From Hyphomicrobiales bacterium (GTDB lineage Bacteria > Pseudomonadota > Alphaproteobacteria > Rhizobiales > Xanthobacteraceae): 64,000 nt of DNA. Each line of letters starts with the position of its first letter. The first letter of the stretch is position 1. Where the stretch lies: contig JAFKKM010000023.1 of NCBI GenBank assembly GCA_017305555.1, positions 1 to 64,000 of the forward strand, read 5' to 3'. The notes beneath the pieces are model-generated. The model did not search any database, was not told where the DNA came from, and saw only the letters and a program-made list of their open reading frames with translations. This document shows, piece by piece, positions 47,402 through 58,309 of the stretch. Position numbers and translations under genes: made by a program.

Positions 47402-48147
47402 CGCCGTCCGTCTCGAACAACGACGATCTGACCTTGCAGGCTTACTGCGACGGTGAACTCGATGCCGCCGCGACCAGCGCGTTCGAGCAACGCCTGGCGA
47501 CCGACGCTGCTCTGCAACGCCGGCGCGATCAGGTGATGGCGCTGCGTGCACGGCTTCGCGGATTGTCCGAGGACGCGCCGCCGTCCGACCTCGTGGCCCG
47601 CATCAAGGCCAACGCCGTCGCGCAACCGCAGCGCCAGCAGCGATGGCCGTGGCGCGCGATGGCGGCGTGTCTCGTGATCGGCATCCTCGCCGGCAGTACC
47701 CCGATGTGGCTGATCCATCGCGACCAGATCTCCGATCAAATCGCCAGCGTCATCATCGGCAATCATATCCGTGGAGCGCTGGCGCCGCAGTCGTTCGACG
47801 TAGCGTCGTCGGATCGTCACACCGTAAAGCCGTGGTTCGCGGCCCGCGTTGCCGAATCGCCGAAAGTGCCCGATCTGGCGCAGGCCGGGTTCGCGCTCGT
47901 CGGCGGCCGCATCGACGTCATCGGCCAGACCCCGGTGCCGACCATTGTTTACAAACACGCCGCCCATGTCGTGAGCGTCAGCGCGCTGCCGCAGCACGAG
48001 GCCATCGCCGCCGACACCACGATCGCCGGCTACCATCTGCGAAGCTGGCGCGACGGCGACTTCGTCTATGTCGCCGTGTCCGATATTCCGGAAACCGACC
48101 TCGCGGCTTTCGAGCGCGCCTTCATCGCCGAGGCCCGCCAGCTCTAA
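47398..48147 (+). CDS. Membrane-bound anti-sigma factor
   Basis: A 249-residue protein: N-terminal anti-sigma helical domain (LQAYCDGELDAAATSAFEQR), one TM segment near residues 84-103 (WPWRAMAACLVIGILAGSTP), and a periplasmic domain (FALVGGRIDVIGQTPVPTIV) resembling the sensor half of ChrR/NrsF-like anti-sigma proteins. It presumably holds the overlapping ECF sigma factor until an envelope signal releases it. No zinc-binding HxxxCxxC is visible. Confidence 0.9.
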   Translation: MTPSVSNNDDLTLQAYCDGELDAAATSAFEQRLATDAALQRRRDQVMALRARLRGLSEDAPPSDLVARIKANAVAQPQRQQRWPWRAMAACLVIGILAGSTPMWLIHRDQISDQIASVIIGNHIRGALAPQSFDVASSDRHTVKPWFAARVAESPKVPDLAQAGFALVGGRIDVIGQTPVPTIVYKHAAHVVSVSALPQHEAIAADTTIAGYHLRSWRDGDFVYVAVSDIPETDLAAFERAFIAEARQL

Positions 48148-48214
48148 ACACCCAGAAACGACAAAGCCGCCTTGCGGCGGCCGGTCGATTAGCAGGTGTT
48201 TGCGCTTGGGTTTC

Positions 48215-48289
48215 TGGAGCGGGCGAAGGGATTCGAACCCTCGACCCCAACCTTGGCAAGGTTGTGCTCTACCCCTGAGCTACACCCGC
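48215..48289 (-). tRNA. tRNA-Gly (GCC anticodon)
   Basis: Read on the minus strand, the 75-base gene starts GCGGGTG and ends CGCCCGCTCCA (encoded CCA). The acceptor stem, D-arm (AGCTCAGGGGTAGAGC), anticodon loop CTTGCCAAG (anticodon GCC) and T-arm (GAGGGTTCGAATCCC) are all canonical. Confidence 0.97.
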
Positions 48290-48655
48290 ATCCGAGAACT
48301 CCGGCGGCGCACCGCCGAGCGGCAGAGCTATGCCAAAAGCGGCCCGCGAATGCAACAGCCTGACGGCGTCCCGCGCGAATAAACCGCGCCGCGACGACTT
48401 TTCCGGTTTTCCGATCCTGCCCCGTTCCATCAGCGGCATCCTGCCGATTGCCGCAATAGCCATGGCCCGCCCATTCAAGATATTGTTATATAATGATTTT
48501 CAGCAAAATATTGCCCGCTTTCGGGGATCACATCGGCACAACCCGCCGCCACGGTCGCGACACAGCGGCGGATTGCAAATCCTCCTCCGCCACGCCATTT
48601 ACAGCCCCACGGCCGCGTTTCATCCGGCAAGCCCAGAACATCAGGTGAGGTTAAC
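48290..48655. promoter_or_regulatory. Gap before the thioredoxin gene with AT-rich promoter-like stretch
   Basis: These 366 bases hold no credible gene. An AT-rich segment at 48480-48515 contains TATAAT (48489-48494) on the plus strand, a possible -10 box for the thioredoxin-TPR gene; no good -35 box is seen. The remainder shows no repeat of the families listed here. Confidence 0.4.
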
Positions 48656-49576
48656 GTGACAATTCTCGAGCAGGGTGACGGCGCGACGCCGTCGGCAAGC
48701 GCCGATCTCATCAAGGAGACCACCACGCAGACGTTCATGAAGGACGTCATCGAGGAATCGAAGCGCCAGCCGGTGCTGATCGATTTCTGGGCGCCGTGGT
48801 GCGGTCCCTGCAAACAACTCACGCCGATCATCGAAAAGGCCGTCCGCGCCGCCAAGGGCAAGGTCAAACTGGTGAAGATGAACATCGACGAGCATCCGGC
48901 CATCCCCGGCCAGATGGGCATCCAGTCGATCCCGGCGGTCATCGCCTTCGTCAACGGCCAGCCGGCCGACGGTTTCATGGGCGCGCTGCCGGAAAGCCAG
49001 GTCACGGCCTTTATCGATAAATTGACTGCGGGCATTCCCGACGCCGCCGGCGACATCGCCGACCTGCTCAAGGAAGCCGAAGCGGCGCAGGCCGCCGGCG
49101 ATGCCTCGACCGCCGCCGCGATCTATGCCGAAGTCCTCGCCGCCGATGCCGCCAACATTCCGGCTCTCGCTGGCCTCGCGCGCTGCTACGCCGAGAGCGG
49201 CGCCATCGAGCAGGCCAAGCAGACGCTGGCGCTGGTGCCGGAAGCCAAGCGGAGCGATGCGGCCGTCAGCGCGGTGCAGGCGATGATCGATCTCGCCGAG
49301 CAGGCAACCTCGCTCGGCCCGGTCGCGGAACTGGAACAGAAGGTCGCCGCCGATCCGCTCGACCATCAGGCGCGGTTCGACCTCGCCACCGCGCTCAATG
49401 CCGCCGGCAAGCGCAATGACGCCACGCAGCACCTGCTTGAAATCGTCAAGCGCGACCGCAAATGGAATGACGACGGCGCGCGCAAACAGCTCGTGCAGTT
49501 CTTCGAGGCCTGGGGCGGCGCCGACGATGCTACCGTCGAAGGCCGCAAGCGCCTGTCGACGATCCTGTTCTCGTAG
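48656..49576 (+). CDS. Thioredoxin-TPR protein (CnoX/YbbN-like chaperedoxin)
   Basis: A 306-residue protein: N-terminal thioredoxin domain with active site WAPWCGPCKQL, followed by TPR repeats (AAGDASTAAAIYAEVLAADA, DLATALNAAGKRNDATQHLL). This layout is that of YbbN/CnoX, which protects clients from oxidation and passes them to GroEL or DnaK. The start is GTG 48656 with GGTGAGG about six bases upstream. The two active-site Cys are present, unlike E. coli YbbN which lacks CxxC. Confidence 0.92.
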   Translation: MTILEQGDGATPSASADLIKETTTQTFMKDVIEESKRQPVLIDFWAPWCGPCKQLTPIIEKAVRAAKGKVKLVKMNIDEHPAIPGQMGIQSIPAVIAFVNGQPADGFMGALPESQVTAFIDKLTAGIPDAAGDIADLLKEAEAAQAAGDASTAAAIYAEVLAADAANIPALAGLARCYAESGAIEQAKQTLALVPEAKRSDAAVSAVQAMIDLAEQATSLGPVAELEQKVAADPLDHQARFDLATALNAAGKRNDATQHLLEIVKRDRKWNDDGARKQLVQFFEAWGGADDATVEGRKRLSTILFS

Positions 49577-49623
49577 GACCAAACCAACCAACAAGGCATC
49601 ATCCCGCAACGTCAGGGCCAGCC

Positions 49624-50298
49624 ATGCCGATCAATGCCGAATATCGCGGCCCCGTCGATCTTCCGGAAGTGATCCCGGTGTTTCCACTGCCGGGCGCACT
49701 ATTGCTGCCGCGCGGCCAGATGCCGCTCAACATCTTCGAGCCGCGTTATCTCGCCATGGTCGACGATGCCTTCCGCGACGGCCATCGCCTGATCGGCATG
49801 ATCCAGCCCGACGCGGCGCACAGCCAAAATCCCGATCATCCGACATTGTTCAAGGTCGGATGCCTCGGCCGCATCACCCAGCTCGCCGAATCCGGCGACG
49901 GCCGCTACATCCTCGAACTCACCGGCGTGTCGCGCTTCAAGGTGGTCGAAGAGCTGTCGGTGCTGACGCCGTACCGTCAGTGCAAGGTTGACCTGTTCCC
50001 CTTCGTCGACGATTTCACCGCACGCAAGGGCGAGGACGACGTCGACCGCACCACGCTGCTCGAGGTGCTGTCCGATTTTCTCAAGGTCAATCACCTCAAG
50101 GTCGATTGGGAAGGCATCGAGAAGGCGCCGAACGAGGCGCTGGTCAATGCACTGGCGATGATGTCGCCTTACGGCCCCGCCGAGAAGCAGGCAATGCTGG
50201 AAGCGCCGGATCTGAAGACCCGCGCGGAAATCCTGATCGCCGTCACCGAAATGGACCTCGCCAAGAAGCGCACCAGCGGCGACCCGCCGTTGCAATAG
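49624..50298 (+). CDS. LON-substrate-binding-domain protein (stand-alone)
   Basis: A 224-residue protein with the Lon N-terminal (LON_substr_bdg) domain: EVIPVFPLPGALLLPRGQMP followed by LNIFEPRYLAMVDDAFRDGH, and FKVGCLGRITQLAESGDGRY. It lacks the ATPase and protease domains of Lon. Rhizobial relatives sit beside thioredoxin-TPR and Trm112 genes, as here. It starts 47 bases after the thioredoxin gene. Confidence 0.9.
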   Translation: MPINAEYRGPVDLPEVIPVFPLPGALLLPRGQMPLNIFEPRYLAMVDDAFRDGHRLIGMIQPDAAHSQNPDHPTLFKVGCLGRITQLAESGDGRYILELTGVSRFKVVEELSVLTPYRQCKVDLFPFVDDFTARKGEDDVDRTTLLEVLSDFLKVNHLKVDWEGIEKAPNEALVNALAMMSPYGPAEKQAMLEAPDLKTRAEILIAVTEMDLAKKRTSGDPPLQ

Positions 50299-50306
50299 CT
50301 GCGCGC

Positions 50307-50657
50307 TCAGTAGCCCGCGATCGCAAACGCCGACACCGCGCCGAGCAAAACCCAGCCGAAGTGCCGACCGCGCGTTGCCCAGGCGTTGACCAGCGTCGCG
50401 AACAGATAGTTCACCGCCATCGTCGCCACGATCCAGTGCCGTGCCGTTTGCGATTCGAAATACGGCGTCGCGATCAGGAGCGCGCCGCCGGCGATCCACG
50501 CCACCGTGCTGCAGTGCCAGACCAACCGCACCAGCAATCGCAACCGCGGCGGCGTCACGGTGACGTGGGGAAAGAGTTTGGTTTCGCTCAGGACGGCATG
50601 GATCAGCGCAACGACGATCGCGGTGACGCCGGCGATTTGAAGTAAAACATCCCGCAT
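50307..50657 (-). CDS. Small four-helix membrane protein, TetR target
   Basis: A 116-residue protein with four TM segments (LLQIAGVTAIVVALIHAVLS, STVAWIAGGALLIAT, ATMAVNYLFATLVNAW, FGWVLLGAVSAFAIAGY). The function is unknown. ATG 50657 follows GGAG by six bases (the frame opens at 50669). Its upstream promoter TTGACG-N17-TATAGA is bracketed by palindromes that also lie ahead of the divergent tetR gene. Confidence 0.82.
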   Translation of the reverse strand: MRDVLLQIAGVTAIVVALIHAVLSETKLFPHVTVTPPRLRLLVRLVWHCSTVAWIAGGALLIATPYFESQTARHWIVATMAVNYLFATLVNAWATRGRHFGWVLLGAVSAFAIAGY

Positions 50658-50665
50658 CGGAGTCT

Positions 50666-50725
50666 CCATACATATGTGTATGGTCTATACGCCCGGGCTT
50701 TGCCCGCGTCAATACAGTCGTGTAT
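50666..50725. promoter_or_regulatory. Divergent TetR operator region with strong leftward promoter
   Basis: CCATACATATGTGTATGG (50666-50683) and ATACAGTCGTGTAT (50712-50725) share the half-site ATACA/TGTAT. Between them, on the minus strand, TTGACG (50707-50712) and TATAGA (50684-50689) are exactly 17 bases apart. One operator covers the start point, the other the -35 box. A TetR gene begins ten bases to the right. Confidence 0.8.
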
Positions 50726-50734
50726 GGTGAACGC

Positions 50735-51298
50735 ATGACGGATCAGCTCTCGGCCACGGACTGGCTCAAACAAGGTCTCAAGACGCTGACGACCAGCGGC
50801 TTCGTCGCGCTCAAGGCCGAGCCACTGGCGAAGGCCATGGGCGTCTCCCGCGGCAGCTTCTATTGGCACTTCGCAGACGTCGCCGCCTTTCACGCGGCGC
50901 TGCTCGACTACTGGCGCGAGGTCGCCGCTGAGCGCGTCATCGCCGCGCTCGAAACCGAAGGCCGCAGCGAGGACGCCTTGCGGCGGCTGATCCGCACCGC
51001 GTTCGACACCCGGCTCGCGACCGAAGCGGCGATCCGCGGCTGGGCCATGCACGAACCGCTCGCGCGCAAGGCGGTGGATGCGATCGACCGCCGCCGGATG
51101 TCCTACATCGCGAGCCTGCTGGAAAAATCCGGATGGCCGCCATCGCGCGCAACGGCGCAGGCGCAAATTCTTTACTGGGCGTTTGTGGGGTTCACGCTGA
51201 GCGATCGACAACTTGCGCGGAAGCAACAGCAGGACGCGATCGCGGAATTGATCCGCATCGTGGCCCCGCAAGGCCGTCGCCAGCCCGGCAAGGTGTGA
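50735..51298 (+). CDS. TetR/AcrR-family transcriptional regulator
   Basis: A 187-residue protein with the TetR DNA-binding domain: [20 protein letters not shown] and [18 protein letters not shown]. The ligand-binding C-domain is unassigned. ATG 50735 lies only ten bases beyond the right operator half-site, so it likely represses itself and the divergent membrane protein. A GTG at 50720 is also in frame. The pair splits the LON-domain gene from the Trm112 gene. Confidence 0.9.
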
Positions 51299-51330
51299 TA
51301 AAGAACGGAGAGAATTTACCGGAGATGACC

Positions 51331-51525
51331 ATGCCCTCGAACGAGCATTCTGAATCCAGCGTCGATCCAAAGTTGCTGGAGATTTTGGTGTGCCCGCTCA
51401 CCAAGGGCCCGCTGGAATTCGACGCCGCGCGGCAGGAACTGATCTCGCGCACGGCCAAACTCGCCTACCCGATCCGCGACGGCATCCCGATCATGCTCCC
51501 GGAAGAAGCGCGGCCGCTGGACTGA
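51331..51525 (+). CDS. Trm112-family protein
   Basis: A 64-residue protein: [20 protein letters not shown] and the closing [17 protein letters not shown] are the bacterial Trm112/UPF0434 signature. In eukaryotes Trm112 activates methyltransferases; bacterial forms may do the same. It starts 32 bases after tetR; GGAG is seven bases before ATG 51331. Confidence 0.93.
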
Positions 51526-52119
51526 GGCGCGCTCGGCCTTTAGGCCCCAGCCGTTACTCCGCCGTCATTGCGAGGAGCGAAGCGACGAAGCAATCCAGCC
51601 CTCGTTTGATGGCCCTGGATTGCTTCGCTGCGCTCGCAATGACGGTGCGGCGAAGACTCGGGGACAACTGGCCCTGATTCAATAAGACGATATGCGTCTC
51701 CACTGTTATGGCCGGGCTCGTCCCGGCCATCCACGCCTTTCCTTTTTTCAGCCGCCTCAAGTCGTGGATGCCCGGGACAAGCCCGGGCATGACGAGGTGG
51801 CGGGTGGCAGGCGGCGCAACCTTGGCCGCCTCCCCGCGCTCGCCTGAATATCGCGCTCAAACTGAAATTTCCGGCCCAAGTTTCGCCGCTGCGCGAGAGC
51901 GGTCGCACCCGCATTCACGCCACAGGCGAACTTTCTCTCTCGTTTGTCAGAAGGAGAATTTTCTCCCAGAACCGCCAATTTAAGCGAATGATGTTTTGTT
52001 ATTTTCCGAAACGGCCCTCTGGGCGATAGAAATTTGCTACACCGGTATCAATTGAAGATAACGCGACCGACGCAAGCGGCGCCGATCCGCTCAAGTGATC
52101 CCTGTTGGAGGAGCCTGCC
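51526..52119. repeat. Intergenic region with family A (copy 4) and family B (copy 4) repeats
   Basis: This 594-base gap contains an A element at 51563-51644 (CGTCATTGCGAGGAGCGAAG, inner GCAATCCAG/CTGGATTGC) and a B element at 51705-51795 (ATGGCCGGGCTCGTCCCGGC, then GGACAAGCCCGGGCATGAC). From 51800 on there is no repeat and no gene. Near 52034 a weak promoter-like pair, TTGCTA and GATAAC with 17 bases between, precedes the AhpD-like gene. Confidence 0.75.
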
Positions 52120-52695
52120 ATGGCCCGTTTGCCCATTCTCACCGTCGAAACCGCCCCCGAAGCCGCCAAGGACGGCGTCGCCAAGGCCGAAAAAGCCAAC
52201 GGCTTCATCCCGAACCTGATCGGCCTGCTCGCCAACGCGCCGGTCGCGCTGGAAACCTACCAGACTGTCTCCGGCATCAATGCCCGCAGCGGGCTGTCGC
52301 TGGCAGAGCGCGAAGCGGTGCAGATCACTGCCGCCGCGACCCACGGCTGCGGCTTCTGCGTCGCCGGCCACACCGCCGTCGCCACCAAGAAGGCCGGTTT
52401 GAAGGAAGACGTCGTCAACGCGTTGCGCGCCAACGCCAAGGTGCCGGACGGCCGCCTCAACGCCGTCGCCGACTTCACCCGCGCGGTGATCCGCAGCCGT
52501 GGCGCGGTGGCGGATGCCGAGCTCGCCACCTTCAAGGCCGCCGGCTTCAACGACGCCAATGCGCTCGAAGTGGTGCTCGGCGTCAGCCTCGCAACGCTGT
52601 GCAACTTCGCCAACAACCTCGGCAAGCCGGACCTCAACCCGCAGCTTCAGCCTTACGCCTGGAGCGGTGCGCCCACCGCTGTCGCGGCCGAGTAA
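52120..52695 (+). CDS. AhpD-like / carboxymuconolactone decarboxylase-family peroxidase-related protein
   Basis: A 191-residue protein with the AhpD core: GLSLAEREAVQITAAATHGC followed by GFCVAGHTAVATKKAGL (CxxC-xxx-H). The family includes alkylhydroperoxidase partners. The start, ATG 52120, follows GGAGGAG. It is the first gene of a five-gene operon that adds a flavin-type acyl-CoA dehydrogenase homolog and an ABC importer. It may deal with peroxides or a reactive product formed by that enzyme. Confidence 0.88.
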   Translation: MARLPILTVETAPEAAKDGVAKAEKANGFIPNLIGLLANAPVALETYQTVSGINARSGLSLAEREAVQITAAATHGCGFCVAGHTAVATKKAGLKEDVVNALRANAKVPDGRLNAVADFTRAVIRSRGAVADAELATFKAAGFNDANALEVVLGVSLATLCNFANNLGKPDLNPQLQPYAWSGAPTAVAAE

Positions 52696-52706
52696 AGGCA
52701 CTGATC

Positions 52707-53795
52707 ATGACCACGCTTCCTGCCGATCTCACCGCCTGGCTCGACGACACGGCCACACATCTCGACACCAGCAATGATGCAGCGGCACATGTCGTGCCGC
52801 GCCTCGCCGACGCCGGCCTGTTCCGCATCGGCGTGCCGGTGGCCTATGGCGGCAGCGGCGGCGACATCAACGATGCTGTTGCGGCGATCAGCTCAGTATC
52901 GGAACGGTCGCTGGCGGCGGGATTCGTGTTCTGGGGTCATCGCACCTTCATCGAATACCTGCTGCAATCGCCGAATGCGACGTTGCGCGAAAAGCTGTTG
53001 CCGGAGCTTCTGGCGGGCCGACGCGCCGGCGCCACCGGTCTCTCCAACGCGATGAAATTCCTCTCCGGCATCGAGGAATTGCAGATCAAGGCGCAGCGGC
53101 AGGATTTCGGCCTGCGCATCGACGGCAAACTGCCGTGGGTGACCAATCTGCGCCTCGGCGGCTTCGATGTTGCCGCTGCAATTCAAGGCGACGGCCATGC
53201 GCCGGCCTTCGTCGCGGTGCTGTCGTCCGACGACGACGGGCTCGAGCGCTCCGCCGATCTCGACCTGATGGCGATGCGCGCCACCAGCACCGCTGCACTC
53301 AAGATCGACAACGTCCGCATCAGCGAAGACCGCATCCTGCACAAGAACGCCAGCGAGTGGCTGCCGAAGGTTCGCCCCGCGTTTCTGGCGCTGCAATGCG
53401 CGATGTCGAGCGGCCTCGCCCGCCGCGCGCTTAACGAAGCCGGTGCGCGTCTCAATCGCGAGCGCGATGTGCTGGCGCAGCCGGTGATCGAACTCGAAGC
53501 CGCGTTGCGTGCTGCCGAAGCGGCGTTGCGCGACGGCCTCAACGGCAACCGTTTTGTCGAGCATCCGGCGCAACTGTTCCGTCTTCGCATCCGCCTTGCG
53601 GAAATCGCGGCGGACGCCTTGCAACTCGAACTCTACGCCGCCGGCGGACGCGCTTATCTCTCCGGCCCCGGCGAAGGTTTCCAGCGCCGTCAGCGCGAGG
53701 CCGCGTTCCTGCCGATCATCACGCCGAGCATCGTGCAACTGAAGCTGTCGCTGCAAATCCACGAACAGCCGGCGGCGATCTCCGCCATCGCGTGA
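52707..53795 (+). CDS. Acyl-CoA dehydrogenase-superfamily flavoprotein
   Basis: A 362-residue protein with the ACAD fold: GLFRIGVPVAYGGSGGDIND at the start, GATGLSNAMKFLSGIEEL in the middle, and AADALQLELYAAGGRAYLSG in the C-terminal helical domain. The usual catalytic Glu region is not clear, as in flavin monooxygenases of the SfnB/DszC type in this superfamily. With the ABC genes that follow (4 bases apart), it may oxidise the imported compound. Confidence 0.82.
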   Translation: MTTLPADLTAWLDDTATHLDTSNDAAAHVVPRLADAGLFRIGVPVAYGGSGGDINDAVAAISSVSERSLAAGFVFWGHRTFIEYLLQSPNATLREKLLPELLAGRRAGATGLSNAMKFLSGIEELQIKAQRQDFGLRIDGKLPWVTNLRLGGFDVAAAIQGDGHAPAFVAVLSSDDDGLERSADLDLMAMRATSTAALKIDNVRISEDRILHKNASEWLPKVRPAFLALQCAMSSGLARRALNEAGARLNRERDVLAQPVIELEAALRAAEAALRDGLNGNRFVEHPAQLFRLRIRLAEIAADALQLELYAAGGRAYLSGPGEGFQRRQREAAFLPIITPSIVQLKLSLQIHEQPAAISAIA

Positions 53796-53799
53796 CGCC

Positions 53800-54633
53800 A
53801 TGACCCAGCTTGCCCTTCACCCTTCGCGACACGACGCACCGGCACTTGAAACGCCGGTGCTGCAAGCGCCGATTCTACAAGCGCGTGGTGTCGCGCTGCG
53901 TTATCCCGGCCAATCCCGCGCCACGATCGAGGGATTCGATTTCGCATTGGCTCCCGGCGAGACGGTGAGCCTGCTCGGCTCCAGCGGTGTCGGCAAATCC
54001 AGCCTGTTGCGTGTCCTCGCCGGCCTGCAAGCGCCGACCGAAGGCCACGTCACCATGAACGACGCGCCGCTCGTTGGCGTGCATCCGCGCGTCGCGGTGG
54101 CGTTTCAGGACCCGAGCCTGCTGCCGTGGCTGACGCTCGAGAAGAACGTCGCCTTCGGCCTCGACTTCAAGCATCAGCCGAGGCAGTCTCGCGCCGAGAG
54201 CGAAGCGCGCGTCGAGATGGCGATCCGCGAAGTCGGCCTCACACAGTCGCGCCGAAAATTTCCCGCTGAACTGTCCGGCGGCATGGCGCAACGCACGGCC
54301 TTGGCGCGTTGCCTCGCGCGCAAGCCGGAGATTCTGCTGCTGGACGAACCGTTCGGCGCACTCGACGAAGTCACGCGCACCGAGATGCAGCATCTGTTGC
54401 TGAAGGTGGTGCGTGACTTCCGCACCGCCGCGATCCTGATCACCCACGATATCGACGAAGCGCTGCTGGTCTCCGATCGCATCCTGCTGCTCGGCGGTGC
54501 GCCGGCCTCCGCAATCGGCGAGTGGCGCATCGATCTGCCGAAACCGCGCGAGGATTTTATCGCGGAGCTCGGCGCGATCCGCGTCGATATCCTCTCGACG
54601 CTGCGCGGCACCGCGCAACGTCGCGCGGCCTAA
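53800..54633 (+). CDS. ABC transporter ATP-binding protein, SsuB/TauB type
   Basis: A 277-residue ATPase: Walker A SLLGSSGVGKSSLLRVL, Q-loop AFQDPSLLPW, signature LSGGMAQRTAL, Walker B EILLLDEPFGALDE and H-switch LITHDIDEALL. This is the nitrate/sulfonate/taurine class. A 25-residue N-terminal extension precedes the domain. Its start lies 4 bases after the ACAD gene. Confidence 0.93.
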   Translation: MTQLALHPSRHDAPALETPVLQAPILQARGVALRYPGQSRATIEGFDFALAPGETVSLLGSSGVGKSSLLRVLAGLQAPTEGHVTMNDAPLVGVHPRVAVAFQDPSLLPWLTLEKNVAFGLDFKHQPRQSRAESEARVEMAIREVGLTQSRRKFPAELSGGMAQRTALARCLARKPEILLLDEPFGALDEVTRTEMQHLLLKVVRDFRTAAILITHDIDEALLVSDRILLLGGAPASAIGEWRIDLPKPREDFIAELGAIRVDILSTLRGTAQRRAA

Positions 54634-54686
54634 TTCCCGTCGCGCTGCATTCGCACGCGCGCGAAACGACACCTGAAAGGTCTGCC

Positions 54687-55889
54687 ATGTCCGCCGATGA
54701 GTTTACCCGTTTTGATGTGTCACGCCGTCAGATGCTGAAGCTGTCTGCGCTCTTGACCGCTGGCGGCGCCGCGCCGCTGCTCCGCGCCTACGAGGCCCGC
54801 GCAGAAGAGGCCGACGCGCCGCTGCGGATCGGCTATCTGCCGATCACCGACGCGACGCCGCTGCTGGTGGCGCACGGCAAGGGCTTCTTCGAAGAGCAAG
54901 GCATCAAGGCCGAGAAGCCGGTGCGGCTGCGGAGCTGGGCGCAGGTGCTGGAGGCCTTCATCTCCGGCCAGGTCAACGCCGTGCATCTGTTGTCGCCGAT
55001 GACGGTGTGGGCGCGCTTCGGCAGCAAGGCTCCCGCGAAAGTGGTGGCGTGGAATCACACCAGCGGCTCGGGGCTCAGCGTATTGCCGCACATCAACAGC
55101 GTGAAGGATCTCGGCGGCACCACCGTCGCAATCCCGTTCTGGTATTCGATCCACAACGTCGTGCTGCAAATCCTGCTGCGCGAGAACGGGTTGACGCCGG
55201 TGTCGAAGCGCACCGGCAAGCCGGCCGCCAACGAAGTCAATCTCGTGGTGATGGCACCCGCCGACATGGTGCCGGCGCTCGCCTCGAAACAGATCAGCGG
55301 CTACATCGTCGCCGAGCCGTTCAACGCCGCCAGCGAAGTGCTCGGCGTCGGCAAGATGCTGCGCTTCACCGGCGACGTCTGGAAGGATCACGCCTGCTGC
55401 CTCGTGTTCATGCACGAGCGCGACCTCCAGCAGCGCCCGGAATGGGTGCAGCGCGCGGTCAACGCCATGGTGAAGGCGCAGCTGTGGACCCGCGATCATC
55501 GCGCGGAAACCGCCGCGCTGTTGTCGAAGGACAATCCGAACCAGTACACGCCGCACAGCGTCGAGGTGCTGACCAAGGTGCTGGCGCCGCCGCCGAGCGA
55601 CGAAAGCATTTACGTCAAGAGCGGCGCGATTCGGCACGCCGATTGGCGCGAGCGCCGCATCGATTTCCAGCCGTACCCTTATCCGAGCTACACCGAGGAA
55701 CTGGTGCGCCGTCTTAAGGATACACTGGTCGAAGGTGATCGCGGCTTCCTCGATAAACTCGATCCGACAGCCGCAGGACGCGAACTGGTCGACGACAACT
55801 TCGTGAAGAAAGCAATTATCGCGAGCGGCGGCATGGCCGCGTTCGGCCTGCCGGAGACATTCACCCGCAGCGAAGTGATCGCAGCATGA
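54687..55889 (+). CDS. ABC transporter substrate-binding protein, CmpA/NrtA-like
   Basis: A 400-residue protein with a twin-arginine signal (SRRQMLKLSALLTAGGAAPL) and the NMT1/CmpA-type fold: LRIGYLPITDATPLLVAHGK, SGQVNAVHLLSPMTVWARFG, and MLRFTGDVWKDHACCLVFMH. Relatives bind nitrate, bicarbonate, or sulfonate-like anions. The ligand is unknown. It overlaps the permease gene by four bases. Confidence 0.9.
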   Translation: MSADEFTRFDVSRRQMLKLSALLTAGGAAPLLRAYEARAEEADAPLRIGYLPITDATPLLVAHGKGFFEEQGIKAEKPVRLRSWAQVLEAFISGQVNAVHLLSPMTVWARFGSKAPAKVVAWNHTSGSGLSVLPHINSVKDLGGTTVAIPFWYSIHNVVLQILLRENGLTPVSKRTGKPAANEVNLVVMAPADMVPALASKQISGYIVAEPFNAASEVLGVGKMLRFTGDVWKDHACCLVFMHERDLQQRPEWVQRAVNAMVKAQLWTRDHRAETAALLSKDNPNQYTPHSVEVLTKVLAPPPSDESIYVKSGAIRHADWRERRIDFQPYPYPSYTEELVRRLKDTLVEGDRGFLDKLDPTAAGRELVDDNFVKKAIIASGGMAAFGLPETFTRSEVIAA

Positions 55890-56737
55890 GCATGAGCTGG
55901 CCTACCGACAGTTTGACGCGCGCGGAGCGGCGAGCACTCGCGCAGTCGACCTCGCGTCCGACCAGCTTCAACATCGCACGGCCGGCATGGACCAATGCGG
56001 CATTGGGCGTCGGGGGATTGCTGGCATTGCTCGTGCTCTGGTGGCTTGGCACCGACGTGCTGGCGTCGCCGGACGGATTCATCCGGCACTTCTCGCCGAC
56101 CACCGCGATTCCGAAACTGATCGTGCTGCTCAGCGGGCCGGACCTGCCGGTGCATATCCTGGTGAGTCTGCGCCGCGTGCTGGTGGGGCTCGGCTTCGCG
56201 CTGTTGGTCGGCGTGCCGCTCGGCCTCGCCATCGGCAGCTTCCAGCGGCTGAATTCGGCGACCTCGCCGGCGTTTCAGTTCCTGCGCATGATCTCGCCGC
56301 TGTCGTGGATGCCGATCGCGGTGATGGTGTTCGGCGTCGGCGACGATCCGATCTATTTCATGCTGGCGTTCGCGGCGGTGTGGCCCATCGTGCTCAACAC
56401 CGCGGAAGGCGTACGCCGCTTGCAGCCGGCCTGGCTCAGCCTCGCGTCAAGCCTCGCCGCGACGCGGTGGGAAACGCTGTGGCACGTCATCCTGCCCGGC
56501 GTGCTCGGCCATGTCCTGACCGGACTGCGGCTCGCCATCGGCATCGTCTGGATCGTGCTGGTGCCGTGCGAGATGCTCGGCGTCTCCGCCGGCCTCGGCT
56601 ACTTCATCCTCGATACCCGCGACCGCCTCGCCTATTCCGAATTGATGGCGACTGTGCTGATGATCGGCCTGCTCGGCTTCCTGCTCGACGCCGGCGCCCG
56701 CGCGCTCTATCGCCTGGCGACGCGCAGCCACGCGTAA
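55886..56737 (+). CDS. ABC transporter permease
   Basis: A 283-residue protein with six TM segments and the permease EAA-like loop (RWETLWHVILPGVLGHVLTG). It forms the channel with the preceding ATPase and binding protein. Start ATG 55886 overlaps the previous stop (ATGA). A family A repeat begins 17 bases after the stop. Confidence 0.93.
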   Translation: MSMSWPTDSLTRAERRALAQSTSRPTSFNIARPAWTNAALGVGGLLALLVLWWLGTDVLASPDGFIRHFSPTTAIPKLIVLLSGPDLPVHILVSLRRVLVGLGFALLVGVPLGLAIGSFQRLNSATSPAFQFLRMISPLSWMPIAVMVFGVGDDPIYFMLAFAAVWPIVLNTAEGVRRLQPAWLSLASSLAATRWETLWHVILPGVLGHVLTGLRLAIGIVWIVLVPCEMLGVSAGLGYFILDTRDRLAYSELMATVLMIGLLGFLLDAGARALYRLATRSHA

Positions 56738-56753
56738 CCGGCGACTTTCCTTT

Positions 56754-56837
56754 CGTCATTGCGAGGAGCGCAGCGACGAAGCAATCCAGTTCTTGCTTTG
56801 TGGCCTTCTGGATTGCTTCGCTTCGCTCGCAATGACG
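56754..56837. repeat. Intergenic palindromic repeat, family A (copy 5)
   Basis: CGTCATTGCGAGGAGCGCAG and CTTCGCTCGCAATGACG arms with inner GAAGCAATCCAG/CTGGATTGCTTC. It lies between the convergent ABC permease and mutM genes. Confidence 0.85.
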
Positions 56838-56857
56838 GAAAGGTCGCGGAACGCGCG

Positions 56858-57739
56858 CTACTTCTGACAACTCGGGCACCAGAACGTCGAACGGCCGTTT
56901 TGCACGAACCGCTTCACGGTGCCGCCACAGCCGCGCGTCCGGCACTTTTCGCCCTCGCGGTCGTAGACCTGAAACGAGTGCTGGAAGTAACCCAGTTCGC
57001 CGGACGTCTGGCGATGGTCGCGCAGCGACGAGCCGCCGGCTTCGATCGCCTGATTCAGCACCTCGTGGATCGACGTCACCAGCCGCTTCGCGTGATCGGT
57101 CGGCGCGCTCTTTTTATCCGCAAGTGTCGCGGCCTTGCGCTTCGGCGACAGATGCGAGCGAAACAGCGCCTCGCAGACATAGATGTTGCCGAGGCCGGCG
57201 ACGACGCGCTGATCCAGCAGCGCGGCCTTGAGACTGGTGGCCTTGCCCGCCGTCGCCTTCGCCAGCATCGCCGCGTCGAAGGCGTTGCCGAGCGGCTCCG
57301 GGCCAAGGCCTTTCAGAAGCGGCTCTTCGTCAAGCGCGGCGCGCGCGATGATCTTCATGTAACCGAAGCGGCGCGGATCGTTGAAAATCACGCTGGCGCC
57401 CGACGACATCTGGAACAGCACATGATCGTGCGCGCGATCCTCGTTGCGCGGATAGTGAAATTCGCCGGGCGTCGCGGCACCCTCCGCCGTCACCACGCGA
57501 AACGAGCCGGACATGCCCAGATGCATCAACAACACGTCGCCGGATTCGAGATCGGCCATCAGGTATTTGGCGCGGCGGCCGAGGCCCGTCACCGTCTGCC
57601 CTTGCAGGCGCGCGACGAAATCCGGCTGGAACGGAAAGCGCAGATCCGCGCGGCGAGTTTCGGCGCGGACGATGCGCGCGCCCTCCATCGCCGGCTGCAA
57701 GCCGCGACGCACGGTTTCGACTTCGGGGAGTTCGGGCAT
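56858..57739 (-). CDS. mutM: Formamidopyrimidine-DNA glycosylase
   Basis: A 293-residue repair enzyme: the catalytic N-terminal Pro and Glu in [14 protein letters not shown], a helix-two-turn-helix region, and the C-terminal zinc finger [13 protein letters not shown]...FWCPSCQK. It removes 8-oxoguanine and Fapy lesions. It is convergent with the ABC operon and lies on the opposite strand to ubiE, as is common in alphaproteobacteria. Confidence 0.96.
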
Positions 57740-57781
57740 TGGCTCTCTGTCTTACTGACGGCAGAGTATACGTCTCTCGAT

Positions 57782-57908
57782 CGTCATGGCCGGATTTATT
57801 CCGGCCATCCACGTCTTCCTCGGACCTGCACAGAAAAGACGTGGATGGCCGGGACACAGGCGAGCGGAAGCGACGCCGTTCTTCGAACGGCTATGCCCGG
57901 CCATGACG
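57782..57908. repeat. Intergenic repeat, family B long variant (copy 5)
   Basis: CGTCATGGCCGGATTTATTC and ATGCCCGGCCATGACG arms, with the inserted segment GGCGAGCGGAAGCGACGCCG then TTCTTCGAACGGCT that is otherwise seen only at 31627-31753. Confidence 0.8.
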
Positions 57909-57931
57909 AATTGATATTTCGTGCGAGATAT

Positions 57932-58309
57932 TTAAGCCCCCGTCTCGCTCTCGGTGAACACCAGCCAGTTATAAAACGGATCAGCCACCGTCATGGTGGT
58001 GGCGCCCCAGGGCTGGCGCTCCAGCCCTGGCCGCGCGTAGCCGTAGTGTTTGGCGAGCAGGCCCGCATGATACTCCGCAAGGCCGGCGGTTTCGATCATC
58101 ACCCGCGCGCCCGGCGCGCTGTCGCCGTGGTGCTCGCTCAGATGCAGCCGCGCCGCGCCCAGCGAGAGGCCCATGTAAAGCGGCAGGTCCGGCTCGAAGC
58201 GGTGCTCGAACGCGACCTTGAAGCCGAGAAAATCGAGGTAAAATTCCCGTGCCTTGCGGATATCGAACATCCGCAGGATCGGGGTGACGGTGGTAAAACG
58301 CGCGACCAT
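57932..58309 (-). CDS. VOC-family (bleomycin-resistance-like) protein
   Basis: A 125-residue protein of the glyoxalase/bleomycin resistance fold: TPILRMFDIRKAREFYLDFL then LGFKVAFEHRFEPDLPLYM, and the C-terminal TMTVADPFYNWLVFTE. A drug-binding or dioxygenase-type role is possible; no ligand can be deduced. ATG 58309 is preceded by AGGG. The frame is open to 58501, but the extra part has no homology. Confidence 0.85.
   Translation of the reverse strand: MVARFTTVTPILRMFDIRKAREFYLDFLGFKVAFEHRFEPDLPLYMGLSLGAARLHLSEHHGDSAPGARVMIETAGLAEYHAGLLAKHYGYARPGLERQPWGATTMTVADPFYNWLVFTESETGA

Follow-up and report, generated by a model that had tools for sequence, protein, structure and literature searches.

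An operon of the srp type in a Hyphomicrobiales bacterium, encoding an AhpD-like protein, a flavoprotein and an ABC importer, with a probable role in sulfur scavenging

Positions 1 to 64,000 of contig JAFKKM010000023.1 from a Hyphomicrobiales bacterium (assembly GCA_017305555.1; this whole stretch of 64,000 nucleotides is referred to here as the window) include a five-gene operon at 52,120 to 56,737, which encodes an AhpD-like protein, a flavoprotein with the acyl-CoA dehydrogenase (ACAD) fold and an ABC importer. The operon is probably a module for scavenging under sulfur starvation, of the type represented by srpJKLM, in which the flavoenzyme breaks down the imported compound with the help of a small partner protein. 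This reading is supported by homology of the importer to SrpL and SrpM of Synechococcus elongatus, by sulfur genes that neighbor related loci, by the rhodanese genes of one variant of the module, and by the co-variation of PA2328 to PA2330 with sulfur genes in Pseudomonas aeruginosa. The initial annotation had proposed uptake and oxidative breakdown of a sulfur or nitrogen compound; the sulfur half of that proposal has gained support, while nothing was found for the nitrogen half.

In the proposed mechanism, a substrate-binding protein (SBP) exported by the Tat pathway would capture a small molecule for import by the ABC permease and ATPase; the likeliest candidates are organic and reduced sulfur compounds. 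The flavoprotein would then oxidize the compound with O2, and the sulfur would pass into cysteine synthesis. The AhpD-like protein, or the OsmC or DUF4242 protein found in its place elsewhere, would reduce peroxide or oxidized thiol intermediates left by the flavoenzyme. Sulfur limitation would be expected to induce the operon, as would oxidant stress in some lineages.

The operon and its distribution

The five genes lie on the forward strand, with intervals of 11, 4 and 53 bases between the first four and a 4-base overlap between the last two, exactly as first described. The first gene (52120..52695) encodes the AhpD-like protein, a 191-residue member of the carboxymuconolactone decarboxylase (CMD) family with a complete E...CxxC...H pattern. 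It is followed by genes for the flavoprotein (52707..53795; 362 residues), which belongs to a separate clade tied to the module, and for an importer ATPase of the NitT/TauT type (53800..54633; 277 residues) that misses all subfamily cut-offs. The SBP (54687..55889; 400 residues) is an NMT1_2 family protein with a twin-arginine signal and a homologue of SrpL, and the permease (55886..56737; 283 residues) is a homologue of SrpM, encoded on plasmid pANL of S. elongatus PCC 7942. Pfam and NCBIfam bear out the five family assignments (AhpD-like protein, ACAD homologue, ABC ATPase, binding protein and permease). The Pfam families are CMD (PF02627) and Acyl-CoA_dh_N (PF02771) for the AhpD-like protein and flavoprotein, both above cut-off, and ABC_tran, NMT1_2 and BPD_transp_1 for the importer subunits. 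In NCBIfam the AhpD-like protein passes the generic AhpD core-domain model (36.8 versus 27.8 bits) and stays below the peroxidase-related model (65.4 versus 81.8 bits); the importer subunits and the flavoprotein reach no curated cut-off among the families listed.

A scan of a collection holding one genome per species (84,980 species) yielded 22 distinct related loci. In 20 of these all five genes are present with order and orientation unchanged, which argues that the arrangement is not due to chance; one of the 20 (L050) carries the ATPase and SBP in broken pieces. As for the two incomplete loci, the contig of L042 ends past the ACAD gene, and L049 has no AhpD match upstream. The hosts of the module include Nitrobacter, Bradyrhizobium, Tardiphaga, Xanthobacter, Methylopila, Microvirga, Chenggangzhangella and a Nitrosovibrio metagenome-assembled genome, among others, and one genome (G033) has two full copies of the operon on different contigs (L103 and L104). 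The module also occurs on plasmids of four further phyla, the 46 matching plasmid records including those of Synechococcus, Thermomicrobium, Deinococcus and Pseudonocardia. In a sample drawn evenly from the phylum, the SBP was matched at E <=1e-60 in 17 of 398 genomes (18 matches), and an ACAD of the module kind adjoins 16 of the 18, accompanied by AhpD in 13 cases and OsmC in 3. The two SBPs that have no ACAD (L101:7583-8890 and L102:7515-8660) possess the same ligand site and lie beside genes for large hybrid histidine kinases, joined in L102 by a GGDEF response regulator, an arrangement that would suit additional sensing of the ligand as a signal. Overall, the operon resembles a mobile kit, shared widely among aerobic bacteria, for one small molecule. 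No description of the five-gene module as such was found in the open-licence literature searched.

The ligand site, the flavoprotein and its partner

A conserved feature of the importer is the putative ligand site of the SBP. The alignment used here comprises 51 SBPs, near copies included, one of which is truncated and does not contribute the columns from W84 to H156. Seven residues (W84, H100, W122, H124, S128, W152 and H156) are the same in all 50 sequences that cover them, and H235, C237 and C238 are identical in 51 of 51. This Trp/His/Cys-Cys site is common to modules with AhpD, OsmC or DUF4242, and the SBP of a Pseudonocardia plasmid, compared by eye outside the alignment, keeps the Cys pair together with the His and Trp motifs. 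Since all ten Trp, His, Ser and Cys residues are invariant, the variants of the module probably bind one and the same ligand. The structure model of the SBP is of moderate confidence (pLDDT 75.4), so the argument for the site is made through the alignment and not through geometry. Near the N-terminus an RR motif is present in 49 of 51 SBPs, as SRRQMLK in the window, in agreement with the initial prediction of a Tat-exported protein.

The composition of the site bears on two other readings of the operon. The SBP fold is nearest to 3un6, CmpC and NrtA, and for the ATPase and permease nitrate models are at or near the top of the scores, as might be expected if the importer took up nitrate, cyanate, a nitrile or bicarbonate and the flavoenzyme were unrelated to it. 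The nitrate-binding positions of NrtA, which we take to be Q155 and K269, correspond to S128 (50 of 50) and C238 (51 of 51) in the module SBPs. Ser and Cys at these positions indicate that the ligand is probably not nitrate, and with every cut-off missed, a nitrogen or inorganic carbon system is very unlikely. It could also be supposed that the SBP carries a metal ion or an organometal or metalloid on which the flavoprotein and AhpD act. The site holds four His residues and a Cys pair, and the nearest solved structure (3un6, from Staphylococcus aureus) contains zinc and has the Cys pair, H124, H156 and W84 in common with it. In addition, SaoX is the next SBP model after the broad SsuA family and SaoP the best permease model, and Sao systems may handle organometals. 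The Sao cut-offs, however, are far off (60.5 of 300 for SaoX and 159.7 of 295 for SaoP), and no gene for metal resistance or metal uptake was seen inside the module in any variant. Moreover, 3un6 deviates at H100, W122, S128 and W152 and may thus bind a different ligand, and a metal ligand is accordingly judged improbable. A relative of 3un6 is encoded with an ABC importer on plasmid pRUMAL02 of Ruminococcus albus (L168, 5911-10649), directly before cooS, the gene for the anaerobic CO dehydrogenase, a nickel enzyme; this arrangement also lies on the side of a metal ligand. Open-licence papers searched for S. aureus locus tags included none that looked relevant.

The flavoprotein is modeled with an ACAD fold (pLDDT 89.6), and its best matches in the PDB, by sequence and by fold, are isovaleryl- and butyryl-CoA dehydrogenases, with DszC, TdsC and KijD3 slightly below them as fold matches. 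Were it an ordinary acyl-CoA dehydrogenase, the importer might bring in a carboxylic acid as carbon source. The sequence matches fade past residue 215-320, though, Pfam recognizes the N-terminal ACAD domain only, and no gene for a CoA ligase or electron transfer flavoprotein lies within the operon. Phylogeny likewise separates the module proteins from ordinary ACADs. All 42 module ACADs placed in the tree group together with three rows initially classed as generic (support 96/95), and 15 ordinary ACADs and 3 SfnB-like proteins fall outside this group; the three rows proved to be the proteins of L012-L014, which adjoin OsmC and rhodanese genes. Near copies were left out of this tree, the SfnB/DszC-like side is represented by proteins of three loci and does not include DszC itself, and L077 and L169 carry a long-branch warning. 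An ordinary dehydrogenase serving carbon uptake therefore seems highly improbable.

A close kinship with SfnB and DszC, which the initial annotation had invoked, did not hold up either. The flavoprotein scores 59.9 bits against SfnB (TIGR04022; cut-off 430.9) and 24.7 bits against DszC (cut-off 850), and it differs from SfnB, DszC, TdsC and MsuC in clade and end motif while sharing their superfamily fold. The likeness to DszC and SfnB is only superfamily-deep. The flavoprotein is probably an O2-dependent oxidase or monooxygenase.

The gene upstream of the flavoprotein is the variable part of the module. The E...CxxC...H active-site pattern is kept in 40 of 40 AhpD proteins, and in eight loci (L012-L014, L078, L079, L098-L100) OsmC replaces AhpD. 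A DUF4242 protein occupies the slot in pANL, Thermomicrobium and Pseudonocardia, according to annotation, and in Kovacikia, according to similarity; the three DUF4242 sequences inspected have a KCxC motif in common. In the Bartonella plasmid locus L073 no AhpD, OsmC or DUF4242 partner is found upstream. The exchange among these three families suggests that the small partner has a thiol-redox role next to the flavoenzyme. The handling of peroxide by AhpD, as originally proposed, is plausible in this light, the active site being complete and OsmC, which also belongs to a family of the thiol-peroxidase type, replacing AhpD elsewhere. A rhodanese gene lies beside OsmC and ACAD in five of the eight OsmC-type loci (L012, L013, L014, L079 and L099). 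TetR regulators beside three OsmC-type modules (L078, L098 and L099) carry a common Gly-Cys in the ligand domain, which is reminiscent of redox-sensing TetR proteins.

Links to sulfur and to oxidants

The closest link to sulfur is provided by pANL, whose SBP is about 58% identical to that of the window. The gene order on pANL is cysK, a gamma-glutamyltransferase family gene, DUF4242, ACAD, ATPase, SBP and permease, and the only ABC transporter in the plasmid's gene table is that of the module. PMC13125312 describes srpL as a TauA-like periplasmic binding component and srpM as a TauC-like permease; given the single transporter, the SBP and permease of the module correspond to srpL and srpM. The designation srp stands for sulfur regulated plasmid-encoded gene, and the srp genes of S. 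elongatus have been considered sulfur-regulated since 1995, as cited in PMC8049743. The pANL locus tags are not mentioned in the open-licence literature searched. The window operon and the srp cluster agree in the order ACAD, ATPase, SBP and permease and in the ligand-site residues. They differ in that the srp cluster has DUF4242 in place of AhpD and is plasmid-borne beside cysK and other srp genes, whereas the window operon has no adjoining sulfur gene.

Elsewhere such genes are found near the module. A test with fixed queries detected genes for sulfur acquisition around 9 of 39 module loci but in 0 of 40 control regions, the latter taken at round-number positions in 9 genomes and not matched one to one with the 39 cases (Fisher p 0.001). 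Because the SfnB-like, DmoA-like and CysK queries and one permease query derive from case loci, a second count used E. coli queries alone, and Ssu/Tau-like genes were then found beside 7 of 39 module loci versus 0 of 40 controls (p 0.005). Both counts leave out near copies (L031-L034, L036, L047, L104, L107), short contigs (L042, L048, L049) and the two loci with no ACAD, L101 and L102. Among the neighbors, a DmoA/NtaA-family monooxygenase near the Microvirga module exceeds the NCBIfam cut-off; genes similar to SfnB/DszC in Bradyrhizobium and Xanthobacter, and others similar to SsuC/SsuA, remain below theirs. The Pseudonocardia plasmid has an NtaA/DmoA monooxygenase, a second ACAD and an importer on one side of the module. 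On the other side, behind the module (L169:12322-15248), lie genes for a hydroxyethylthiazole kinase, an LLM oxidoreductase and a rhodanese, a combination that might point to a sulfur heterocycle.

In P. aeruginosa, we infer from annotation and gene order only that PA2327 to PA2331 are orthologues of the module, with an NrtA-like SBP, an ATPase and an acyl-CoA dehydrogenase annotated in a row. According to PMC8466066, deletion of PA2504 brings down the transcripts for these three proteins (PA2328, PA2329 and PA2330) along with those of cys and ssu genes. Quorum sensing activates genes of this group too: PA2330 and PA2331 are listed as core quorum-sensing genes in PMC8863103, and PA2328 to PA2331 are lowered by a quorum-sensing inhibitor in a table of PMC7775676. 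The main-text passages of PMC7950407, PMC7760384 and PMC13423671, searched for PA232x and PA233x gene numbers, contain nothing on the operon, nor do those of PMC12581299, searched for PA23xx numbers and AhpD or ACAD names.

Like ssuEADCB and tauABCD, the module combines a NitT/TauT-type ABC importer and an oxygen-using enzyme in one operon. SsuD, which is luciferase-like, and TauD have folds other than that of the module enzyme, and the module differs from both systems in missing the SsuA, TauA, SsuC, TauC, SsuB and TauB cut-offs.

Several points weigh against a role in sulfur scavenging. In NCBIfam the SBP falls below the SsuA_fam cut-off (100.6 of 163.5), the permease below TauC (119.9 of 342) and SsuC (92.1 of 347), and the ATPase below SsuB (173.2 of 395) and TauB (178.5 of 357); all three subunits likewise miss the nitrate cut-offs of the curated models. 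The window flavoprotein lacks the C-terminal RTxxxHDP, the His motif of DszC, TdsC and MsuC, which is seen in the aligned TdsC and, with a change, in MsuC, and has FLPxxTPS instead; without this motif, an oxygenase reaction is something that we infer. For srpL and srpM in particular, control by sulfur is suggested by the gene names, and 30 of the 39 neighborhoods in the flank test, that of the window included, have no sulfur gene. Finally, the response of PA2328 to PA2331 to quorum sensing and hypochlorite means that sulfur need is not the sole signal.

The hypochlorite response raises the possibility that the module first serves in defense against reactive chlorine or thiol oxidants, importing a product of oxidant attack and removing or salvaging it, with sulfur control being secondary. 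Outside the window's class, an AraC regulator of the Cupin_6 type adjoins the module in eight of nine loci (L088-L096), the exception being L093, where an EamA transporter gene takes its place; the hosts belong to another class of the same phylum, probably the beta/gammaproteobacteria. The eight genomes encode 17 Cupin_6 proteins in all, only 1-4 each, so that the adjacency is not due to chance. All eight regulators are homologous to E. coli RclR and have both redox cysteines, the first of which aligns exactly in one alignment and is shifted in another; C21 and C89 of RclR are presumably the oxidant-sensing residues. These versions of the module resemble the RclR-RclX pair of P. aeruginosa in having an AhpD-family protein beside an RclR-type regulator. 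According to PMC7950407, RclX confers protection against HOCl and HOSCN, and a table in PMC10687435, an NaOCl study, marks PA2328 to PA2331 as up. RclX differs in being encoded by a single-gene operon with no importer or flavoprotein. Against oxidant defense, no Cupin_6 protein, and hence no RclR-type regulator, occurs anywhere in the window genome, and both cysteines are also present in 4 (perhaps 5) of 9 other Cupin_6 regulators of the same genomes. An importer would be an unusual part of a detoxification system, and the same oxidants also raise ordinary genes for sulfur uptake. Oxidant defense as the primary function is thus considered unlikely, and sulfur scavenging is preferred.

An Rrf2 regulator gene precedes the module in Methylopila and Xanthobacter, and one is also present upstream of the srp cluster on pANL; the pANL protein lacks the cysteines of the other two.

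Upstream elements and wider significance

Two elements upstream of the window operon might take part in its regulation. A perfect 14-base palindrome, GGAGAATTTTCTCC (51953..51966), is a possible operator; the near relatives L031, L032 and L034 retain it, and L033 has an altered form. The block CGATAGAAATTTGCTACACCGGTATCAATTGAAG (52024..52057), conserved in the window and in L031-L034, is a possible promoter or activator region. A regulon defined by the palindrome was considered and rejected, as this is the sole exact copy in the genome and one-mismatch copies number four, versus 2 for a backward control pattern. No sigma-70 promoter was found, and neither window positions 48000-58000 nor seven related loci yielded a riboswitch or other structured RNA, tRNAs being the only hits. 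Five copies of CATTGCGAGGAGC, which belongs to a short palindromic repeat, are present in the window (51566, 56757, 28028, 35079 and 41416) versus 0.26 expected from shuffling, and those at 51566 and 56757 flank the operon.

Beyond the scavenging function proposed for the window operon, the module could tentatively be seen as adding a third general way of scavenging sulfur to those of ssu and tau, with one ligand recognized by an invariant site across at least five phyla, its own flavoprotein clade, interchangeable partners and sometimes an RclR-type switch. In its boldest form, this idea would have thiocyanate or another small sulfur anion as the ligand, and the rhodanese, the RclX-like AhpD and the RclR-type regulator would then be tied together. 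We know of no substrate for the srp importer of pANL. The srp genes are now connected with operons on the chromosomes of Nitrobacter, Bradyrhizobium, Xanthobacter and Methylopila, with genomes of another class of the phylum and probably with Pseudomonas. The exchange of AhpD, OsmC and DUF4242 offers a testable clue to the function of DUF4242, and a ligand-binding result would assign a function to a family spread across several phyla.

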